Positions 1-9,972 of a stretch of DNA of 35,778 nt are shown one piece after another. The notes under the pieces were generated by a model. It was not told where the DNA came from. It saw nothing but the letters and a program-made list of their open reading frames with translations, and made no database searches. Within the stretch, counting starts at the first letter, position 1, and each line of letters opens with the position of its first letter. Source of the stretch: a bacterium (GTDB lineage Bacteria > UBP6 > UBA1177 > JAGLDR01); contig JAGLDR010000047.1 in NCBI GenBank assembly GCA_023145475.1, positions 1 to 35,778 of the forward strand. Reading direction: 5' to 3'. Both the position numbers and the translations under genes were made by a program.

Positions 1-563
1 TCAACGCGATAGGTAAAATAACCGACCTCAGCCTGCACAGTTGAACCATCGAATGTGTTACTGCACCCAATTTCAACATCATCGACAAACTTGATTCCTT
101 CAAATTCGAAAGAGGGAGCATCAGTAAGAAGTTTGCCAACATCACCAGCCTTCACCTTTTTCGTATGCTTATTATAAAACGAGAGCGTCACCTCATTATC
201 TGTTGGTTTATCAAGTTGGTCTGGCGCAACTGCACCCATCCAGATAAGATACGCCTTTTCAACAATCGCATCATTAGGCAGATGTTTTTCTGTTAAAGTG
301 AATGAACTCGTGCTAAGACAGACATCACCCTGCGGATTTGCGGAAGTTTCACCATAAAAAGTGATTGTATCATCTAAAAATGAGTTAAACATGACAAAAT
401 ACTCAAGACCATGATCTTCAAAAGTCAATGATGGCTCGCCACCTGGCATATTTCCATGAATTTCCGCTGAAACAGCAAACGCAAAGAGTAGAAATGGTGT
501 CATGCCGATACATTTCAGAAGAAATGTGACGACTTGATACCGTTTGGTCCTGTTTTTCTTCAT
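1..563 (-). CDS. Secreted surface protein, paralog of the 5771-8905 product (5' part only, runs off the left edge)
   Basis: Manual reverse translation from ATG at 563: MKKNRTKRYQVVTFLLKCIGMTPFLLFAFAVSAEIHGNMPGGEPSLTFEDHGLEYFVMFNSFLDDTITFYGETSANPQGDVCL...AEVGYFTYRV; near-colinear with the N-terminus of the 1044-aa protein. SD AGGAGA 5 nt upstream. Absent from ORF track because no stop lies inside the window. Confidence 0.9.
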   Translation of the reverse strand, partial: MKKNRTKRYQVVTFLLKCIGMTPFLLFAFAVSAEIHGNMPGGEPSLTFEDHGLEYFVMFNSFLDDTITFYGETSANPQGDVCLSTSSFTLTEKHLPNDAIVEKAYLIWMGAVAPDQLDKPTDNEVTLSFYNKHTKKVKAGDVGKLLTDAPSFEFEGIKFVDDVEIGCSNTFDGSTVQAEVGYFTYRV

Positions 564-3500
564 CGTTTTCTCCTCACAAACAGTCCAACTAACGGGAAGA
601 TAAGCAAAAACAGTAGAAATGCGTATGTTTTTGGGGGTTTTTCAACAGTTGTGATGGTACATTCACACGATGAATTTTGCGGCGATGCTGAGCAAATATC
701 TCGTCTATCAACAAACTGTTTCGACACAAGAGGTAGCTGATATACCGCCATCACATGTGACAATTGGAGAGAATTTTGATTTATGCGAAGTTGCGCGGTT
801 TCTCCGCAACTTAGAGCAAGTTCACCAACCACCAGAAGATAGGAATCTTTATCGGCAACAAGAGGATAATCCAAGTTAAAATCGACTGTTTGCTCAGTAA
901 ATTCACTTACTTCAGCAAGAAGTGGCTCCTCATCTGAAAGGACTCCATCGCCGTTCACATCTTCATAGATAGAGAGCGATGCTATCCCCGCTCCGAGCCT
1001 TGTTGAACCTTCATTTACGCCTATACGAAGAGTTTGTAACACACTATTCTGTTTGTTGCTTTTCAGACGCAACTGCATCAGAGCGTGTCTTCCATTGATA
1101 TCATTTGGATCGAGAATAGATGGATCATTCATCCCTTTTGTGATGATAAAACCATCTGAAGGCTCCACCATAAATGTTGGAAAGTCTATTCTATTCACCT
1201 TGTCACCATTTTTGTTAACCAACTGCACAATAGGAACTCCATCATCAACAAGCTCTATTGAGAATGGGTCCATAAGAGAGAGAAAATAGGTTGAAACCTC
1301 ATCGGGAGACACATCAATATAATTAACATCGGCAACAATCAAAAAAGCGTGCTTCAAACCTCCGAAGATTGAATAGTTATAATCGTTTGAAAGTGTTGCG
1401 ACGGGGATTCCACCTCCCTTTACGACTTCAGGCTCCAAGGAATCAAAAGAGCCGTTGTTGTTCAAATCCTCTATCAATCGGATAGTAAAAAATACGTTAG
1501 AAGAAGAACTTGTAACACCAAGTTTCAGTTGCTTGAATTTATAAAAAGTATCTCGCGCCACCGTCTGATTAAACAGGAGGGACCCTATGACAAGATTGGC
1601 AACTTTTTGTGGCACAAGAATTGGAATATTCTCTGTAGCGACTGAAGGACTCTCCCCTTTTGAGACCGTTACAATTACACCTTCTGTTGGTGTCGCATTC
1701 TCAATATTAACGCACCGTCCAGCCTCCTCACTGCACTCCTTTCCTGCGGGACAATCACCATCTTTTTGACAAAGAATCGAAGGAATAGAGCCTCCACACA
1801 GCGTCATATCAATAGTGCGTGTACATTTGTCTCCAAAAGACGATGGCATCCATAATGGAATGCCGCCATTCGTGTCATAGGAATCGCTCATTCCATCCGC
1901 CTTAATTGTAGCAATATTAAAAACAGAATCTAGGACATAAATATGTCTCAATTTTACTTTAAAACGGACTAACGCCGTATCTGGACAGATATCTGGAGTA
2001 ATGGGAGATACTTCATCCCAACTCTCATCCTCGTTACACGGACGCATCGTTGGCAGCGCATCAAGAGTGACCCCATCTTCCAACGGAAATACGCCATTAT
2101 CTGGCACATGAATCCAATCTCTTTCAATTACGCCCCACTTTTCATCAAAGGTGACTGCGTATGAAGTGGTCCCCGGAATATACTCCATAATTGATGTATC
2201 AAGACGATTGCGGACAACAACATTACTAACGGGATCATTCGACCAGTTCTGCACTTTAATAGAAAACCAGAACTCTTCACTCTCATCGCACCAGCGATAA
2301 TCATCTCCCGTATAGTGGTTACAGACAAACATTTCAGGCTCATTTGGAATATCAAAGACAGGTTCTCCACTTGAAACAGCAACAATAAGAAAATTTGTCA
2401 ACATCCAATCTTGATTGGCGCTTATTTTTATATTTATCGTATCGCCACCTTGATAAAAATGGCCCGCAAAGTCGTCCTGCTTCATCGTATCAATCACAAA
2501 AGTGTCCATATCGACACCGTATTCCATCATGTTATTATATCCAGGAGGTGTCCCACCAATACAGCTTGGGTCTGTATCAGAAAATCCATACTGGCTAGAT
2601 ATACTGTTAAAAACTTCAACATACGGAAAAAGACCGGTAGCATCTTGAATTTCTGCAGGTGGATTACATTCATTGCTTAAAGGAAGCCAATCAGGAAGTC
2701 CTCCCTGCACCAAGACACCTTCAGGAAATGCTGGACCACCATCAGGATTTGTAAGAACAGCGCGACCGGGATCACCTTCAAATGATGCAAGTGTCAAACG
2801 AATCCTAGGACTCTCTGGAAGGATAAACCCTGTTACGCTCATCTCTGTTTGCACATGAGAATATCCCGAAAACCCGTTGTACATATATATTTTGTTCGGT
2901 AAAACCTCATCCGAATCGTAAATAAGAATGATTGACCACCCAGAGACCATCGTTGACCTTCTCACATACTTAACATCCTCTGCACATCGGAAATTCTTGA
3001 GATTATAATCGCCAAGAAGCTGAAGACCAGAGAGGGCGACACCCTTTTTTTCTCCCTCACGATGAATATCTGTGAAGAAGTCTGTAATATCCGTTCGGTA
3101 GGTAAAATAAGCCTCGTCAGGGTCATCAGGAAAACGGTAACTTTCAAATGAAAAACCCTGAGCCGAACTAAGCGTCTTTGCAACAACTTCAACCTCTTTT
3201 GAAAGTGAGTAATATCCATCTTTCGAGCTGAATTCTAGTGTAACATCATTGTCTAAAACACCCGCTAAATCTTCTTGAGAGACTGCGCCAGTCCAAACAA
3301 GAAAGGCTCTTTTTATATGAGCGTCCTGTGGAATATGTCTTCCATTGAGATGGTAGGTTGAACCAACTGATTCGTCTATGCAGTGGTCGGCCTGTGGGTT
3401 AACTACCGAATCACCTGTGGTATCCTCATTCTTTAACAATGACTTAAACATAACAAAATAGCTGTGCTGCGATGCATCCCACTGAAGCTTCTTACCACTG

Positions 3501-3583
3501 TATTCAGCAACTTCTGAACCAAGCTTCTTTGCTGAAACAGTAAACGCAAAGAGTAGAAACAGTAAAAACGCTATTTTTTTCAT
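560..3583 (-). CDS. Large secreted surface protein with N-terminal domain, DUF11-like domain, Cys-rich motif, DxDxDG motifs and C-terminal Cys/TM/Arg tail
   Basis: 1007-aa ORF; signal peptide MKKIAFLLFLLFAFTVSA; CQKDGDCPAGKECSEEAGRCV; C-term CECTITTVEKPPKTYAFLLFLLIFPLVGLFVRRKR*; SD GAGGAGAAGACA-ATG; ATGA overlaps at both ends. Confidence 0.9.
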   Translation of the reverse strand: MKKIAFLLFLLFAFTVSAKKLGSEVAEYSGKKLQWDASQHSYFVMFKSLLKNEDTTGDSVVNPQADHCIDESVGSTYHLNGRHIPQDAHIKRAFLVWTGAVSQEDLAGVLDNDVTLEFSSKDGYYSLSKEVEVVAKTLSSAQGFSFESYRFPDDPDEAYFTYRTDITDFFTDIHREGEKKGVALSGLQLLGDYNLKNFRCAEDVKYVRRSTMVSGWSIILIYDSDEVLPNKIYMYNGFSGYSHVQTEMSVTGFILPESPRIRLTLASFEGDPGRAVLTNPDGGPAFPEGVLVQGGLPDWLPLSNECNPPAEIQDATGLFPYVEVFNSISSQYGFSDTDPSCIGGTPPGYNNMMEYGVDMDTFVIDTMKQDDFAGHFYQGGDTINIKISANQDWMLTNFLIVAVSSGEPVFDIPNEPEMFVCNHYTGDDYRWCDESEEFWFSIKVQNWSNDPVSNVVVRNRLDTSIMEYIPGTTSYAVTFDEKWGVIERDWIHVPDNGVFPLEDGVTLDALPTMRPCNEDESWDEVSPITPDICPDTALVRFKVKLRHIYVLDSVFNIATIKADGMSDSYDTNGGIPLWMPSSFGDKCTRTIDMTLCGGSIPSILCQKDGDCPAGKECSEEAGRCVNIENATPTEGVIVTVSKGESPSVATENIPILVPQKVANLVIGSLLFNQTVARDTFYKFKQLKLGVTSSSSNVFFTIRLIEDLNNNGSFDSLEPEVVKGGGIPVATLSNDYNYSIFGGLKHAFLIVADVNYIDVSPDEVSTYFLSLMDPFSIELVDDGVPIVQLVNKNGDKVNRIDFPTFMVEPSDGFIITKGMNDPSILDPNDINGRHALMQLRLKSNKQNSVLQTLRIGVNEGSTRLGAGIASLSIYEDVNGDGVLSDEEPLLAEVSEFTEQTVDFNLDYPLVADKDSYLLVVGELALSCGETAQLRINQNSLQLSHVMAVYQLPLVSKQFVDRRDICSASPQNSSCECTITTVEKPPKTYAFLLFLLIFPLVGLFVRRKR

Positions 3584-5624
3584 TGTCTTCTCCTCAGAAG
3601 CAGTCCACCCAACAGAAAAATCAGTAGAAACAGCAGAAACAGATATATTTTTGGGCCTTTATCAACGGTTGTGATAGAACACATGCATCCCGTCCCGTTA
3701 CAACCACCATCATCAGGGCAATTGCCCCACGAATCACAAGAAAAAGTGTGTGAAAGAAGAGGGAAGCCAAGCGTCTTAACCTCTGTTTTCAAGGTAACAT
3801 CGACTGCATTTATCTGAAAAACAGCTCTATCTTCACTACTCGTTATCTCGTGTATATCAGCGTAGAGAAGAAAAATCTTTTTCTCTCCCGCTTTATATAA
3901 AACAGGTGTCAGGAATGTATCAAAATGAGCCTGATCATTTCTGAATTTCGTAACTCGTTTCAACAATATATCACCCTCTCCATCACCATCACTATCTTGA
4001 TAAAGAGAGAATGAATCAAGATCTTTTCCAAAAGGAGTCGTCGAAGAAGGAGTCAACCCCACAACAAGTTTGGTAATCTCATTTTCAATAGTTGATTTGA
4101 GCCAAAACTGCATCACCGGGGTTTCACCATTTTCATCGCCATCCCACCCATCACTCGTTTTCGGTGGATGAGGTTCATTTTCTCCCCGTCCAGCAAAGAG
4201 ATAACTGCCTGATGGCTCAAGTATAAATGTTGCAAAATAGAGACTCCTTCCATTAAATTGAAGGGTGGTGTAGGAGTTCATTCCATGCAGGCTTTTAGCG
4301 CTGCTAATTGCAAAGGTAAATGTTGTGTTTTCTGGAACTATTTCGTCACTATAATCAACTTTTGTTATAATCAGAAAGTTGTGATCTACGCGTCCGAGAT
4401 ATCTGCGATGCTCCTTGTTAATCACAAGCCTAAACCCTGCCGTCTCTTTTGTTGCCTCTTGCGAAACAACAACATCTATGCCATCAGTGTAGACCCCATC
4501 GTCATCTTTATCATATACCAACTGCACATCTGAAAATGCGATAGACTCCTTGGTTGTTGTCAAACTTACAAAAATCTCATCAAATAAAAATGCCCTTGTC
4601 CGTAAACAACCAGAAGAATTGAGTTTCAATTGACCAACAACAAGCACCTTTCCATCGTTGTCGTGAGGAATAATGTGGGAAAATTCGGTTGAAGGTGATG
4701 AGTCTCCAGCAGAAAAATCGACCTCATCCTCGCGGCATAAATTCTCTTGTATAACACACTTTTCGTCTCTGCATATCTCATTGGATTCACAGTCATCATC
4801 TATTAGGCACCCACCAACATCAACACCTCCACAATTCTCTTTTGTCGGTTGCAGGCAATCGAGAAGAGCGCCACATGAGGCTGCTCGTAAAGAGAGAGGA
4901 AAACTCTTATTTGTCTTGTATATAGTGCCACTACCATCAGAAATCAGAGCCATATTATATAAAATAGTCTCTTTTATCATTATCTCTTTCGGTTTCACAA
5001 GAAAACGAATCAAACGACCATCGCTACAAGTCCAAGTAGTGGTATCACAAGGCTCCATTCTATCTGCGATTTTATAACCATCTCCACCAAGTGGAAATTT
5101 CTCAGCAGCTGTTTCACCACTCTTTTCTGGTATCGGCTGCCAACCAACATGATAATTCTTTTCAGTATTATAGTATCTTGCAATTTCAGCACTTCCGACC
5201 ACATAATCCATCTCAAGCAATTCATCTTTGACCCAAACATCTGTGGCAAAATCTTTCCCCCAGTTTTCAACCTTAATCATATAATAAAAAGGACGACCAT
5301 TATAACAAAAATAGTCATAATCTCGATCATCATTTTTTTGACACGCACAAAATTGTTTTTCTCTATCATCTTTCCACGGAAAAACCCTTGATTCGGGAGG
5401 AATATCCCAGCGAGAAGGAGAGATGTCTACATCGGTATCTACATCGGTATCTACATCTATATCAACATCTGCATCAATATCGGCATCAGCATCAACATCT
5501 ATATCTACATCTACATCTGCATCAATATCGGTATCTACATCAATATCGGCCATTAGAGAAAAAGAAAAGAGAAGAAACAGAAGAAATGTGGCGACTTGAT
5601 ACCTTTTTGCTCTCTTTTTTTTCA
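3580..5624 (-). CDS. Secreted surface protein paralog with an Asp-X repeat linker in place of the N-terminal domain
   Basis: ORF listed as 3580..5673; the better start is ATG at 5624 (MKKKRAKRYQVATFLLFLLFSFSLMADID...) preceded by GAGGAAAGGG. From SPSRWDIPPES onward it aligns with SPGWDVPPEAKN... of the 5771-8905 product; C-term CMCSITTVDKGPKIYLFLLFLLIFLLGGLLLRRRQ*. Confidence 0.88.
5422..5547 (-). repeat. Degenerate hexanucleotide (GAYNNN)21 repeat encoding (Asp-Val/Ile/Ala/Thr)21
   Basis: Direct reading: DIDVDTDIDADVDVDIDVDADADIDADVDIDVDTDVDTDVDI; 126 bp, 6-bp period, in frame. Confidence 0.95.
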
Positions 5625-5728
5625 TCCCTTTCCTCGCATCAAAAAAACAAAATGTCACAAATGTTGAAACCAACTTATATATAATACACTATCTATTGAA
5701 TTTTATCAAATGAAAAGAGGAATATATC

Positions 5729-5748
5729 CCCTCTCCGTGCGGAGAGGG
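5729..5748. repeat. Perfect 8-bp stem hairpin CCCTCTCC-GTGC-GGAGAGGG in an intergenic spacer (possible dispersed intergenic repeat or terminator)
   Basis: Perfect inverted repeat between the 5771-8905 gene and the next gene; followed by aaataaaaggggtgagg; no strong T-tract on either side. Confidence 0.55.
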
Positions 5749-5770
5749 AAATAAAAGGGGTGAGGTTTAA

Positions 5771-8700
5771 TTACTTACGAGAAGAACGCCTTCTTGAGAA
5801 GAATAAAACGGTTGACAAAAGAAGTGCAAGCAGAGCGAGCACACTCATATCAGCTGTCTGATTAACAGAAGTAATGGTACATTTTCCGCCACCGCCTTTG
5901 TCTTCAATAGGACAAGTTCTCGCGGTTGTAGCATCGCCGTTTGTACACTGAAATAGCTTTGAATAAATTGGCGTTCCAACAATTGTTGTACTATCTTTCA
6001 ATTTCAGACTGCGATCAGCAACATAAAAAATCACCTTTTGACCAGCTTCTATTCCTCTCATATCAGCTTGAACAACAAAAGTCTTATCCTCGCCTTCACC
6101 ATAGTTAAGTGGCAAATCAAAGCCATTAAACAAAGCTGTATTTGCGGTAAAAACCACCTGTTTTTGCAAAAGAACATCTCCCGTTCCATCGCCATCACTA
6201 TCTTGATAGAGAGAGACAGAAGGAATATTATCGCCAAAGCGCATATTAGAGCCAGGAGCCATTTTGATAGCAATCTCTGTCAGCTCATTGGTAACTTCAC
6301 TTGATTTTGTCCACATCTGCATAACGGGGATTTCCGTGACGGTCTCACCCTTCCACTTTGTGGGATCCTGAGGAACAGAGGCATCATTTGATCCAAGAGT
6401 TGCAAGAAAATAGTTTCCCTCTGGCTCTAACATAAATGTTGCAAACTTTATAGAAAGACCCTTAAATTCAAGGTCCCCTGCCTGATCTTGTCCGTGAAAA
6501 CTGTCTGCAGCTACAATCGAAAGATTAAAAGTACTCTTTTTCCCGACCTTTTGCGTACTTGGATAGTCAACCTTAGTCAGGATAAGGAAGTTATGATCAG
6601 TACTGCCTGTGTACGCCTGCATATCATCTTTAATTAAGATTCTAAATCCTGTGTTTTCTTTTATAGCAGCCTTTGAAACAATGGTATCAATCCCTTGAGT
6701 ATAGACACCATCGTTATCTTTATCATAGACAATTTGTTGGTCTGGAAACTCAATCAACTTATCTTCTCTATAGTTGCTTGCAAAAAGTGCCGTAAAGAAA
6801 AAGTTCTTTGTATTACCACAGGTTGTAGCATTCAGAGTAAACTGTCCTGCAACAAGATACTTTCCACCGTTATCACGATAGATGATATGCTTTGATGTGT
6901 CACTTGGAGTATTGGGACCTACAGTATATTTTACAATTGTTCCCGCACTACAAACCTCGCCATCAAAAACACATTCGCCAGCTGCATTACACTTCTTCCC
7001 TTCTTCACAGTCATCATCAGAATGGCAAGTGTCATCAGGAATTCCACCACAATCTTCAGGTTTTGGTTGCGAACAACTTTCAAGACCGACACAATCAACA
7101 CCACTCGTAGGAATTGGCCATGAATTATTTGTCTTGTAGTGGGTTCCAGAACCATCAGAAATAACGGCTATATTTTCAAGAACAGCATTCTTTGACAGAC
7201 CACTTTTTGGTGTTACCAAGAAGCGAACCAAGCGGGTATCGGTACAAGTCCATGAAGCGATATCACAAGTCTTCATCTCATCAGCAACCTTCACACCCTT
7301 TCCACTCAGAGGAAACTTCTCTGCTGCTGTTGCGCCAGCTTTATCTGCAATTGGCTTCCAATCTGTGTAATACTTCAATGAAGAGCTATATTTTGATGCA
7401 ACTTCCGTTGTTCCTGGAATATATACCAGATTGATAAGCTCATCACTTACCCAGACATCTTTTGCAATATTAGTTCCCCAGTTCTCGACCTTAATCATAT
7501 AATAGAAAGGACGCTCACCATAACAATAATACTCTGCTTTAGCGTTGTTAGTCTTACATGCACACCACTGTTTCTCTCTATCATCAGTAAAAGGAAGATT
7601 CTTTGCCTCTGGGGGAACATCCCAACCAGGAGACTTTGTATCAACAGAGAGCATTAAAAAGTTTGTAATGATAGCATCTTGATTAACAGAAAGAGTAATA
7701 TCCATCTTGGTGTTTCCGCGAGCAAGGTGCTCTTGGAGATTGATATCTTTTTCAGCATCAAGCAAGAATGTATCAACATCGATACCATATTTCTGATCGC
7801 CAGTTCCACCAGTTACACATGAAATCAAATCTTCTTCTGCTGCCTCTGGATCCCAATTTATGATAGAGGAGTTTGAGTTATATACCTCATAGTCCAACCC
7901 AGTCTTAGGATTACATTTGTTGTGAAGATGATATGGTGCAGTTGCGCCTTCACCTGTCAGCATAATGCCCTCTTTTGGCATTGTTGGATTTACTTCAAGT
8001 GCAGGATCACCCTCTGCAACCATCAGTGTTTGACGAACAATTGGGTTCTGAGGCAAGTTAAAGCCAGAAACCTCGGCTTTTGAACGCTCACCTTGAACAT
8101 AAGAGAGACCATTATAGAAATAAATCTTTTTAGAGCGGATTTTTCCACTTCTATAAATAACAATCAATGACCATGCTGAGACCATCGTTGTACGACATTT
8201 GTAATTATCATGATCCGTACACTCAAGATCAGAAACCGTATATTTACCATACAGTGCATTTCCAGATAAAACGCCACTATCACTATTAACGATAGCACCG
8301 TCATCCTTCTCCATTCCGTCTTTTTGTACTTTTTTCATAAATTCGGTTACATCAACGCGATAGGTGAAATAACCAACTTCAGCTCTTACTGTTGAGCCAT
8401 CTGATGTCTCGCTACAGCCAACTTCCACATCGTCTTCGAATTTAATACCTTCAAAATCGAATGGTGAAGTGGTGTCAGTAAGGAGTTTCCCTGCATCACC
8501 GGACTTAACGGCTGTTGTCCCTGTTACTGCGTGGGCTGCATTCTCATTATCAAACGAGAGTGTAACCTCATTATCTGTTGGATCACCCAATTTTTCTGGA
8601 GCTACAGCTCCCATCCAAACAAGATAGGCTGATTCAACAATAGCATCATTTGGTACATGCTTATCTGTTAAAGTAAATGGACTGCTATTCAAACAGGTGT

Positions 8701-8905
8701 CTCCCTGTGGATTTGCAGCTGTCTCACCATACAGTGTAATTGTATCATCCAACAGAGAGTTGAATAAAACAAAAAAGTCCAAACCACCATCTTCAAAACT
8801 CATTGTTGGCTCACCACCCGGCATTGTTCCGTGTGTTTCTCCAACCATTACCAAAGGCATCATCATCAAAATAAATACCAAAAGCATACTTCTAAATAAC
8901 TTCAT
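5771..8905 (-). CDS. Large secreted surface protein, most complete member of the paralog family
   Basis: 1044 aa; signal peptide; AYLVWMGAVAPEKLGDPTDNEVTLSF; CHSDDDCEEGKKCNAAGECV; LVYDKDNDGVYTQGID and LYQDSDGDGTGDVLL; C-term KCTITSVNQTADMSVLALLALLLSTVLFFSRRRSSRK*; RBS AAGGGGAGGAGTAC-ATG. Confidence 0.92.
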   Translation of the reverse strand: MKLFRSMLLVFILMMMPLVMVGETHGTMPGGEPTMSFEDGGLDFFVLFNSLLDDTITLYGETAANPQGDTCLNSSPFTLTDKHVPNDAIVESAYLVWMGAVAPEKLGDPTDNEVTLSFDNENAAHAVTGTTAVKSGDAGKLLTDTTSPFDFEGIKFEDDVEVGCSETSDGSTVRAEVGYFTYRVDVTEFMKKVQKDGMEKDDGAIVNSDSGVLSGNALYGKYTVSDLECTDHDNYKCRTTMVSAWSLIVIYRSGKIRSKKIYFYNGLSYVQGERSKAEVSGFNLPQNPIVRQTLMVAEGDPALEVNPTMPKEGIMLTGEGATAPYHLHNKCNPKTGLDYEVYNSNSSIINWDPEAAEEDLISCVTGGTGDQKYGIDVDTFLLDAEKDINLQEHLARGNTKMDITLSVNQDAIITNFLMLSVDTKSPGWDVPPEAKNLPFTDDREKQWCACKTNNAKAEYYCYGERPFYYMIKVENWGTNIAKDVWVSDELINLVYIPGTTEVASKYSSSLKYYTDWKPIADKAGATAAEKFPLSGKGVKVADEMKTCDIASWTCTDTRLVRFLVTPKSGLSKNAVLENIAVISDGSGTHYKTNNSWPIPTSGVDCVGLESCSQPKPEDCGGIPDDTCHSDDDCEEGKKCNAAGECVFDGEVCSAGTIVKYTVGPNTPSDTSKHIIYRDNGGKYLVAGQFTLNATTCGNTKNFFFTALFASNYREDKLIEFPDQQIVYDKDNDGVYTQGIDTIVSKAAIKENTGFRILIKDDMQAYTGSTDHNFLILTKVDYPSTQKVGKKSTFNLSIVAADSFHGQDQAGDLEFKGLSIKFATFMLEPEGNYFLATLGSNDASVPQDPTKWKGETVTEIPVMQMWTKSSEVTNELTEIAIKMAPGSNMRFGDNIPSVSLYQDSDGDGTGDVLLQKQVVFTANTALFNGFDLPLNYGEGEDKTFVVQADMRGIEAGQKVIFYVADRSLKLKDSTTIVGTPIYSKLFQCTNGDATTARTCPIEDKGGGGKCTITSVNQTADMSVLALLALLLSTVLFFSRRRSSRK

Positions 8906-9050: not shown

Positions 9051-9833
9051 TTATTTTAACTCAGCTTCTCTCTTTTTTATTTTCAAAAGGAAGGCAATGG
9101 GTCCACCTATCAGCCCAAATATGAGAAAAAATGATTCAACTCGCGTGAAAATCGACATCCAGCCAGTAAGAAGTGAGAGTGCAGCAAAGAAATAGATATC
9201 GACCTCATTAAACTTAAAAATTGATAAAAATGCACTACCTAACCATTTAAGCCACTCTATTATTGTTCTTTCTGGCGGCAGCTTTTGTAGTCTTTTTGCA
9301 CTCTTTTTTGTTGCCCACTCCTCTAAATCGCCCTTTTTGGTATGATATTTCAACTCTAAATCTTTAATAACAACCTCTGTTATCCACTTGCTATAATTTG
9401 CAATAAATGCTCCTGTTACACCCGCCATTGGAAGAATAATATCCCACATCGAGTGCGTTATAAGCCATGCTCTATATCCCATCGCCCAAAAAAGCAAAAC
9501 AAATGTAACAGCATCAGTCACCTTGTCATAAATATTTCCAAAAGCTGATGAAGTCTCGTGATAACGGGCAATTGTGCCATCCATATTATCAAGAACAAGT
9601 CCTAAATTGATTAAAACTGCACCCCAGACTGCTCCGGTATAAGTGTGTACAAAAGCGATAAAATAGAGGGCAATAAGCTTCACAAAAAGTGATGCAGTTG
9701 TTACCCGATTCGGTGTTAACCACCGTTTTTCAATAAAAGGATAGAGAAAAAGTATGGTCAGTGGACGAGCAAAAATCATCGCCCAAAAATCATCTGATTG
9801 AAAGTTGCGTAATCGCTGTAATCGTGTTTTCAT
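9051..9833 (-). CDS. CDP-alcohol phosphatidyltransferase family membrane protein
   Basis: NLGLVLDNMDGTIARYHETSSAFGNIYDKVTD resembles the DG(x)2AR(x)8G(x)3D(x)3D signature; start adjusted to ATG 9833 (MKTRLQRLRNF) after GAGGGTAG. Confidence 0.85.
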   Translation of the reverse strand: MKTRLQRLRNFQSDDFWAMIFARPLTILFLYPFIEKRWLTPNRVTTASLFVKLIALYFIAFVHTYTGAVWGAVLINLGLVLDNMDGTIARYHETSSAFGNIYDKVTDAVTFVLLFWAMGYRAWLITHSMWDIILPMAGVTGAFIANYSKWITEVVIKDLELKYHTKKGDLEEWATKKSAKRLQKLPPERTIIEWLKWLGSAFLSIFKFNEVDIYFFAALSLLTGWMSIFTRVESFFLIFGLIGGPIAFLLKIKKREAELK

Positions 9834-9972
9834 TTGTCTACCCTCATTATAAACAACGGAGACAAGGCATGCCTTGTCTCTACGGAAATACAAAACCATT
9901 GTAAATAAATACTGTTTTTTTACGAATAATTTTGTTAGAGTGCCACAGATTGTATGATTTCAGGAGAATCAG

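Follow-up and report, generated by a model that had tools for sequence, protein, structure and literature searches.

What fixes the C-termini of three neighbouring, apparently exported proteins of an uncultured bacterium, and which enzyme would act on them? The question is raised by the 35,778-nucleotide stretch analysed here (the window), which is contig 189 of a 2.35-Mb MAG (94.6% complete) of the phylum UBP6. An earlier note had quoted three C-terminal tails from it, each with a Cys motif, a transmembrane (TM) helix and an Arg-rich end, and had proposed cleavage near the Cys by a dedicated intramembrane protease, with possible lipid attachment. The nearest known parallel is MYXO-CTERM, which MrtX was shown by experiment to cleave in a Cys-dependent manner in Myxococcus xanthus and in E. 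coli (PMC11980579); the products processed by MrtX are brought to the surface by the type II secretion system (T2SS) in M. xanthus (PMC11980579). A single member of the myxosortase pathway has been studied by experiment, and the acyltransferase of the pathway is still unidentified, with Lgt favoured (PMC11980579).

We compared 28 genomes of UBP6, which fall into four families: f1, the genome of the window itself (G000, "own genome" below); f2, G004-G008; f3, G009-G027; and f4, G001-G003. Named homologs come from bacterium UBP6_UBA1209 and three rumen MAGs; our use of the phylum name follows these names, not a tree of marker genes. With good confidence we read the tails as a MYXO-CTERM-type sorting signal whose Cys would be modified, with a cut next to it by a single CPBP myxosortase, and a second, shortened form of the signal as probably feeding the same modification step.

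RESULTS

Three paralogous proteins carry the tail

All three tails are present letter for letter, on three minus-strand genes (Table 1). The tails quoted earlier are thus real and exact, and only the end of the span given for them, 560-5860, was misplaced, as it falls inside the tail at 5774-5884. The three tagged paralogs form one operon; the start of protein 3 and the stop of protein 2 overlap by four bases (3580-3583), as do protein 3 and the truncated fourth paralog (560-563), which is 53% identical over 175 aa to L014:7619-10792. The three proteins are all-beta, with weak DUF11 matches and ordinary type I signal peptides; protein 2 lacks the N-terminal domain of the other paralogs and has a Dx repeat. 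Since they are homologous along their length (30–44% identity in the alignment), their tails alone do not count as three independent observations. The AF2 model of protein 1 has an all-beta body, a linker at residues 990-1007 with pLDDT <50 and a single C-terminal helix at 1019-1041; a Foldseek search with the cargo protein model returned weak similarity to beta-sandwich proteins (TM ∼0.1) and was uninformative. Two of the three tails contain Cys-x-Cys (CEC, CMC), a detail absent from the earlier note.

Just upstream of the operon lies a CDP-alcohol phosphatidyltransferase gene (9051-9899, minus strand), whose product weakly matches the model of protein-sorting archaetidylserine synthase (26.5 against a cut-off of 200). 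Enzymes of this type adjoin archaeosortases in archaea.

Table 1. Features of the window and related genes elsewhere in the own genome
Feature	Position	Strand	Basis
Protein 1, tagged, predicted exported; DUF11-like all-beta adhesin-type, signal peptide	5771..8905	-	ORF, 1044 aa; weak DUF11 matches; AF2
Putative long sorting tag of protein 1, KCTITSVNQTADMSVLALLALLLSTVLFFSRRRSSRK, Cys codon 5879-5881	5774..5884	-	profile match 1.8e-23
Protein 2, tagged, predicted exported; signal peptide	3580..5625	-	ORF, 681 aa; alignment
Putative long sorting tag of protein 2, CMCSITTVDKGPKIYLFLLFLLIFLLGGLLLRRRQ, Cys codon 3679-3681	3583..3687	-	profile match 3.8e-24
Protein 3, tagged, predicted exported; signal peptide	560..3583	-	ORF, 1007 aa
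Putative long sorting tag of protein 3, CECTITTVEKPPKTYAFLLFLLIFPLVGLFVRRKR, Cys codon 659-661	563..667	-	profile match 4.1e-26
Fourth paralog, truncated by contig end after its first 187 aa; tail outside window	3..563	-	ORF; BLASTP
Short-tag proteins of the own genome	L136:129-4046, L138:2-2389, L221:3091-4593		e.g. SGCAVIVL, GCGCSMVL, SGCSVLVF
Lgt-family genes of the own genome	L272-L276, contigs C173, C39, C183, C123, C35		PF01790

The long tag occurs on unrelated proteins throughout the phylum

A profile built from the three window tails confidently matched only those three proteins in the own genome; among its weak matches L006 and L008 were taken up as tags, and L005, L007 and L009-L013 were left aside. 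A nine-tail profile that includes homologs has matches in 28/28 genomes, and most of the strong ones, inspected singly, are C-terminal tags. The profile check proposed in the earlier note, once the profile is broadened, thus reaches beyond the window paralogs. Independence of the tag comes from the unrelated families that carry it, in the own genome (L006, L076, L077) and in 27 further genomes. The cargo of the tag in the own genome includes a HYDIN/Ig protein ending GGCAQIAVDS...RRRNR (L006) and a beta-helix protein of the collagen/DUF7151 kind ending SGCSIVTTDES...RRRLS (L076), while in L077:2377-7539 (contig C170) the tag is internal: GGGCSLTISDDE-TM-KKK sits within a 1721-aa EGF/TSP3 frame, which continues directly with a signal-peptide-like stretch and then a barrel/OmpA protein. 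M. xanthus MXAN_5598 has the same arrangement of internal tag, signal-peptide-like stretch, barrel and OmpA (PMC11980579). In other genomes the tag ends DUF11, DUF7151 and glucodextranase-B/Ig proteins, so that cargo phylum-wide comprises DUF11 adhesins, DUF7151/collagen and HYDIN-Ig proteins and the EGF-OmpA fusion.

The phylum-wide core is [GS]-G-C-[SAT]-[IVLM]-[TSV]-x-[VIL], with GCGC-S in f2. The tripartite layout of Cys motif, TM helix and basic end holds on unrelated cargo; C-[TS]-I-T-x-V, earlier put forward as the motif, is only a local version of the core. Each of 47 ORFs with a TM-free body, a C-terminal TM helix and a basic tail has C[SAT] before the helix (47/47, at loci mostly selected by profile), as do both non-membrane proteins of this layout (2/2) in 20 evenly spaced, unselected stretches of G023.

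Three DUF7151-type proteins (L091:225-1229, L090:3437-4441 and L119:12941-13951) have a GC[TA]V core and a weakly hydrophobic tail with no basic end (for example SGCTVTSVDTDAVLQLGSIISNIYKFVSDLF), possibly a third form of tag.

The motif grades into MYXO-CTERM

TIGR03901, the MYXO-CTERM model, has no match to the window proteins or their tails, and none of the existing CTERM models reaches its cut-off on these tails; coverage by such a model, named in the earlier note as a refuting outcome, thus did not come about. Of 36 tails from across the phylum, nine match TIGR03901 with E ≤ 1, the strongest at 2.9e-7; one relative, L095:3432-6536, passes the cut-off as a full protein (22.2 versus 20), and L076 of the own genome scores 13.8. 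Sub-threshold matches to the JDVT-CTERM model were found in 8/36 tails. Because the phylum core grades into MYXO-CTERM, we regard the tag as a divergent MYXO-CTERM-type signal and not as an unrelated new one, in line with the resemblance that the earlier note saw in the Cys. The form found in the window is a divergent end of this range.

One myxosortase-like protease per genome

A single CPBP (PF02517) gene is present in the own genome (L001:1477-2112, 212 aa), on contig C19 between genes for phosphoglycerate mutase and cysteine desulfurase and away from the tagged genes. Its best NCBIfam models are MrtP (89.7 bits), MrtC (88.2) and Mrt_core (84.3), all below their cut-offs; for Mrt_core (NF040914) the own protease scores 84.3–86.5 bits against a cut-off of 100, which is passed in 1/28 genomes (103.7). 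By Mrt_core, one clear Mrt ortholog is present in 27/28 genomes, including 18/18 high-quality ones, the sole miss being a 65% complete genome; a second CPBP gene in G001 reaches only 23 bits. Each of the Mrt models is matched by 18/18 orthologs in the alignment, among which the CPBP catalytic motifs EExxxR, FxxxH and HxxxN, and also FxPS, are invariant. The AF2 model of the own protease (pLDDT 93.6) has SpdC, which we take to be a CPBP-type protein, as its best PDB match in Foldseek (probability 0.99, E-value only 0.28). The predicted co-occurrence of a CPBP myxosortase-like protease with the tags is thus found (Mrt in 27/28 genomes, tags in 28/28), in a form that offers no presence/absence contrast, because the protease is near-universal within the phylum. 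Mrt scores are highest in f4, a family with few tags.

In the own genome there are 0 matches to exosortase (PF09721) and 0 to sortase (PF04203). Its one rhomboid gene was rejected as a rhombosortase, scoring 23.2 bits against the TIGR03902 cut-off of 84. The T2SS secretin GspD (TIGR02517) is present with 423.7 bits, and over cut-off in 25/28 genomes. The best explanation, on the model scores and invariant motifs, is that the protease is myxosortase-like and belongs to a subfamily particular to UBP6.

A shortened tag with no helix

Reading C-termini in stretches that had not been chosen for tags, we met large exported proteins whose C-terminus reads GC[SA]-Phi-(x)-Phi-Phi-COOH, with no helix (e.g. 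SSGCSVTVF, DGCGCSVVF). In the own genome they include SRDSGCAVIVL (1305 aa, FG-GAP) and NNGCGCSMVL (795 aa), and in G023 SSSSGCSVTVF (a subtilase) and KKSSGCSMTVF (an M4/M36-like peptidase); ∼60 more short-tag proteins were found in the phylum beyond the three of Table 1. Among 720 sampled, unselected ORFs, C-termini of the form GC[SA]-Phi-(x)-Phi occur 4 times, against 0.0095 expected when the last 30 residues are shuffled. Searches of the phylum's DNA for such endings gave 58 matches versus 1 in the reversed control for the SGC type with five residues after the Cys and a stop, and 54 versus 0 for GCGC plus stop; at 26 of the 30 five-residue loci read, the match closes a long ORF after an acidic or Ser-rich linker. 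The pattern with four residues after the Cys and a stop gave 33 versus 5, and about half of its loci that were read are chance; matches closing tiny ORFs (L162, L167, L168, L175; ∼13 of 30 loci) were dropped on that ground.

The ending is tightly kept: Gly precedes the Cys in 63/64 short tags, Ser follows it in 61/64 and the last residue is Phe in 47/64, with four residues after the Cys in f2 and five in f3 and the own genome. A crude signal-peptide test was passed by 20/24 short-tag proteins with a complete start, compared with 29% of sampled ORFs. Their cargo comprises C25 and S8 peptidases, PAD_porph, metallophosphoesterase and FG-GAP proteins; the metallophosphoesterase homolog of the own genome (C183), for which a short tag is predicted, runs off its contig before the C-terminus. 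NCBIfam CTERM models had no match to short-tag proteins. In 43/47 of them the reading frame beyond the stop codon encodes nothing resembling a helix, and readthrough into a hidden helix was rejected as a general account, a hydrophobic stretch of about TM strength lying downstream in frame in only 4/47.

Two further loci were noted. In L094:2770-7125 (G010), internal, helix-less copies of SSGGCSMVAVD link three consecutive peptidase C25 domains, and the protein ends SSGGCSMIFN. At L249 ∼1456-1527 (G005 C1:67143-67169) an ORF of ∼24 aa, MKNRLLALVKRTVTSNGCGCSVLF, lies behind a 362-aa radical-SAM/SPASM-like protein; it may encode a small peptide substrate or have arisen by chance.

Long and short tags vary together

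Both forms have the core GC[SA]-Phi. A second Cys at -2 is found in 7/7 long and 31/32 short tags of f2, and in 1/34 long and 1/28 short tags of f3 (Fisher exact test, 3.6e-7 for long and 8.6e-15 for short tags; related proteins are counted, so these P-values are optimistic). The difference shows between homologs as well: a PAD-like protein of G005 ends GCGCSVLF where its 45% identical counterpart in G009 ends SGCSVVVI, and of two metallophosphoesterases with 39% identity one ends GCGCSVVF, the other SGCSVTVI. Homologs also exchange one form for the other. The UBA1209 homolog of protein 1 (39% identity over 991 aa) has no helix and ends SSGCSVLTLDQDFRM; G012 carries, within a single stretch, both a homolog with the short form (L084:3-569) and a paralog with the long one. 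This joint variation among families, and the exchange among homologs, suggest one machinery for both forms, and we think that they probably share it. Two points speak against it: a helix-less protein has no obvious route to a membrane enzyme, and f4, which possesses Mrt and some long tags (L070, L073), yielded no short ones with the DNA patterns used.

Lgt-family genes are expanded

PF01790 (Lgt family) has 3–7 matches in each of the 28 genomes and 5 in the own genome (Table 1); a few of the matches across all genomes may be fragments of a single gene. One is a canonical Lgt, with RFGNFMNSE and 175.7 bits to TIGR00544, over the cut-off; in the others R-x-G-C-x(3)-GCC-[FY]-G replaces the canonical motif, and they fall below the Lgt cut-off. 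One non-canonical gene directly follows lspA (L273, L278, L283, L290). The expanded genes are candidates for the acyltransferase that is missing from the pathway, and a paralog might act on C-terminal tags; GCC-type Lgt relatives may be common elsewhere too.

In G005 an Lgt-like domain is part of a ∼1250-aa open frame (L279:967-4725) with an AraC-regulator-like C-terminus, and long frames also occur in G006, G007 and G008. A gene neighbouring the Lgt-family gene in the own genome (L274:269-2593) has a similar AraC-like ending.

DISCUSSION

Our data argue for a divergent MYXO-CTERM-type signal served by a myxosortase-like protease, because the single CPBP protein is nearest to Mrt, exosortase, sortase and rhombosortase were not found in the own genome, and GspD is present. 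Tagged proteins would be exported by Sec via their type I signal peptides; their C-terminal helix would anchor them in the inner membrane and leave the Arg/Lys tail on the cytoplasmic side. The conserved Cys would then be modified, probably lipidated, and the protein cut next to it by the one CPBP protease of the genome. The shortened signal, GC[SA] plus two to four mostly hydrophobic residues, probably feeds the same modification on secreted enzymes. For UBP6, lipidation, cleavage, pairing of enzyme with substrate and surface location are predictions from the tags and their spread, the lone Mrt-like gene, the T2SS secretin and the Lgt expansion. What speaks against this scheme is that the protease misses the Mrt_core cut-off (84–86 versus 100), that the window tails miss TIGR03901, that the Mrt gene is not beside the tagged genes, that its near-universal presence gives no contrast within the phylum, that the Foldseek E-value is only 0.28, and that f4 combines top Mrt scores with few tags. 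The earlier note was right in its observation and right in kind in its interpretation, which is now partly supported.

The tails could instead be ordinary membrane anchors shared by descent, with a Cys motif of no role in sorting and a CPBP protease engaged in something else. The window proteins are indeed paralogs, a TM helix with a positive end is a normal stop-transfer anchor, and other bacteria, as control genomes show, often have CPBP proteins too. We nevertheless find this highly improbable: the identical Cys motif recurs on unrelated families and persists without a helix at the extreme C-terminus of dozens of proteins, no C-terminally anchored protein with a TM-free body lacks it among the ORFs examined, and within the CPBP family the gene belongs specifically to the Mrt type. 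It is hardly credible, too, that a rhomboid, exosortase or sortase type of protease processes the tag and the Mrt-like protein is incidental. The one rhomboid gene is all that would speak for it; that rhomboid scores far under the rhombosortase cut-off, the other two enzymes are absent from the own genome, and the Cys motif fits the MYXO/JDVT type of tag, which Mrt enzymes process.

The short endings leave more room for doubt. That they are remnants of decayed long tags, or that the motif serves some other purpose at the C-terminus (a disulfide, a secretion or folding signal), is a possibility of some weight, if not the one we favour. Without the helix a substrate has nothing to keep it in the membrane, and f4 has Mrt and long tags with no short ones by the patterns used. 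A leftover would not be expected to keep its length and flanking residues so strictly, to exceed the shuffled expectation as it does in the unbiased ORF sample, or to vary in its CxC between f2 and f3 exactly as the long tags do; the absence, for most short-tag proteins, of a helix encoded in frame beyond the stop and the exchange of long and short tags between homologs also count against it. We therefore keep to the reading of the short ending as a probable substrate of the same modification.

The proposed system shares with MYXO-CTERM/MrtX a signal peptide, a Cys in a short GCGC-like motif, a TM helix, an Arg/Lys tail, a CPBP glutamic protease of the Mrt family and a T2SS; the GCGC of the f2 long tags is itself the generic MYXO-CTERM motif (PMC11980579). 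It differs in belonging to another phylum, in scoring under the TIGR03901 and Mrt_core cut-offs in the own genome's window tails and protease, in its core C-[SAT]-[IVLM]-[TS]-x-[VI]-[DE] and in the coexistence of a helix-less form. JDVT-CTERM/MrtJ and Synerg-CTERM/MrtS (NCBIfam) are likewise C-terminal Cys tags processed by Mrt-type CPBP proteases; UBP6, in contrast, has no two-gene pair of enzyme and target, the neighbours of its Mrt gene are metabolic, and the motif differs. With GlyGly-CTERM/rhombosortase, PEP-CTERM/exosortase and LPXTG/sortase only the tripartite layout is shared, as there is no common motif and the enzymes are absent or sub-cut-off in the own genome.

The short tags also resemble the eukaryotic CaaX box, in which a Cys a few residues from the C-terminus is followed by hydrophobics and Rce1 is the protease; a CPBP/Rce1-family protease is present in UBP6 as well. 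A strict CaaX match, with the Cys exactly four from the C-terminus, was rejected, since three residues follow the Cys in CaaX and four (f2) or five (f3, own genome) in the short tags. Unlike CaaX proteins, short-tag proteins are exported and not cytosolic, no prenyltransferase was identified, and their modification is predicted only. We offer as a tentative idea that the short tag is a CaaX-like signal modified by the long-tag machinery, in which an Lgt paralog would serve as the C-terminal acyltransferase, while the myxosortase would clip off the few residues that follow the lipidated Cys. If so, the TM helix of MYXO-CTERM would be dispensable and C-terminal lipidation separable from cleavage at the helix.

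What is new, as far as sequence comparison can tell, is a putative divergent MYXO-CTERM/myxosortase-like sorting system outside Myxococcota, together with a short form of the tag. UBP6 would be a second phylum with a divergent, complete-looking set of long tags, one Mrt per genome, a T2SS and 3–7 Lgt-family genes, giving independent comparative leverage on what a myxosortase recognises. In the short tags the Cys motif occurs naturally apart from the helix; lipidation before and independent of cleavage thereby becomes testable, as does the need for a helix. Finally, the short tags may allow prediction of surface-attached enzymes (gingipain-like C25 peptidases, subtilases, PAD-like proteins) in uncultured anaerobes and in bacteria of the rumen.
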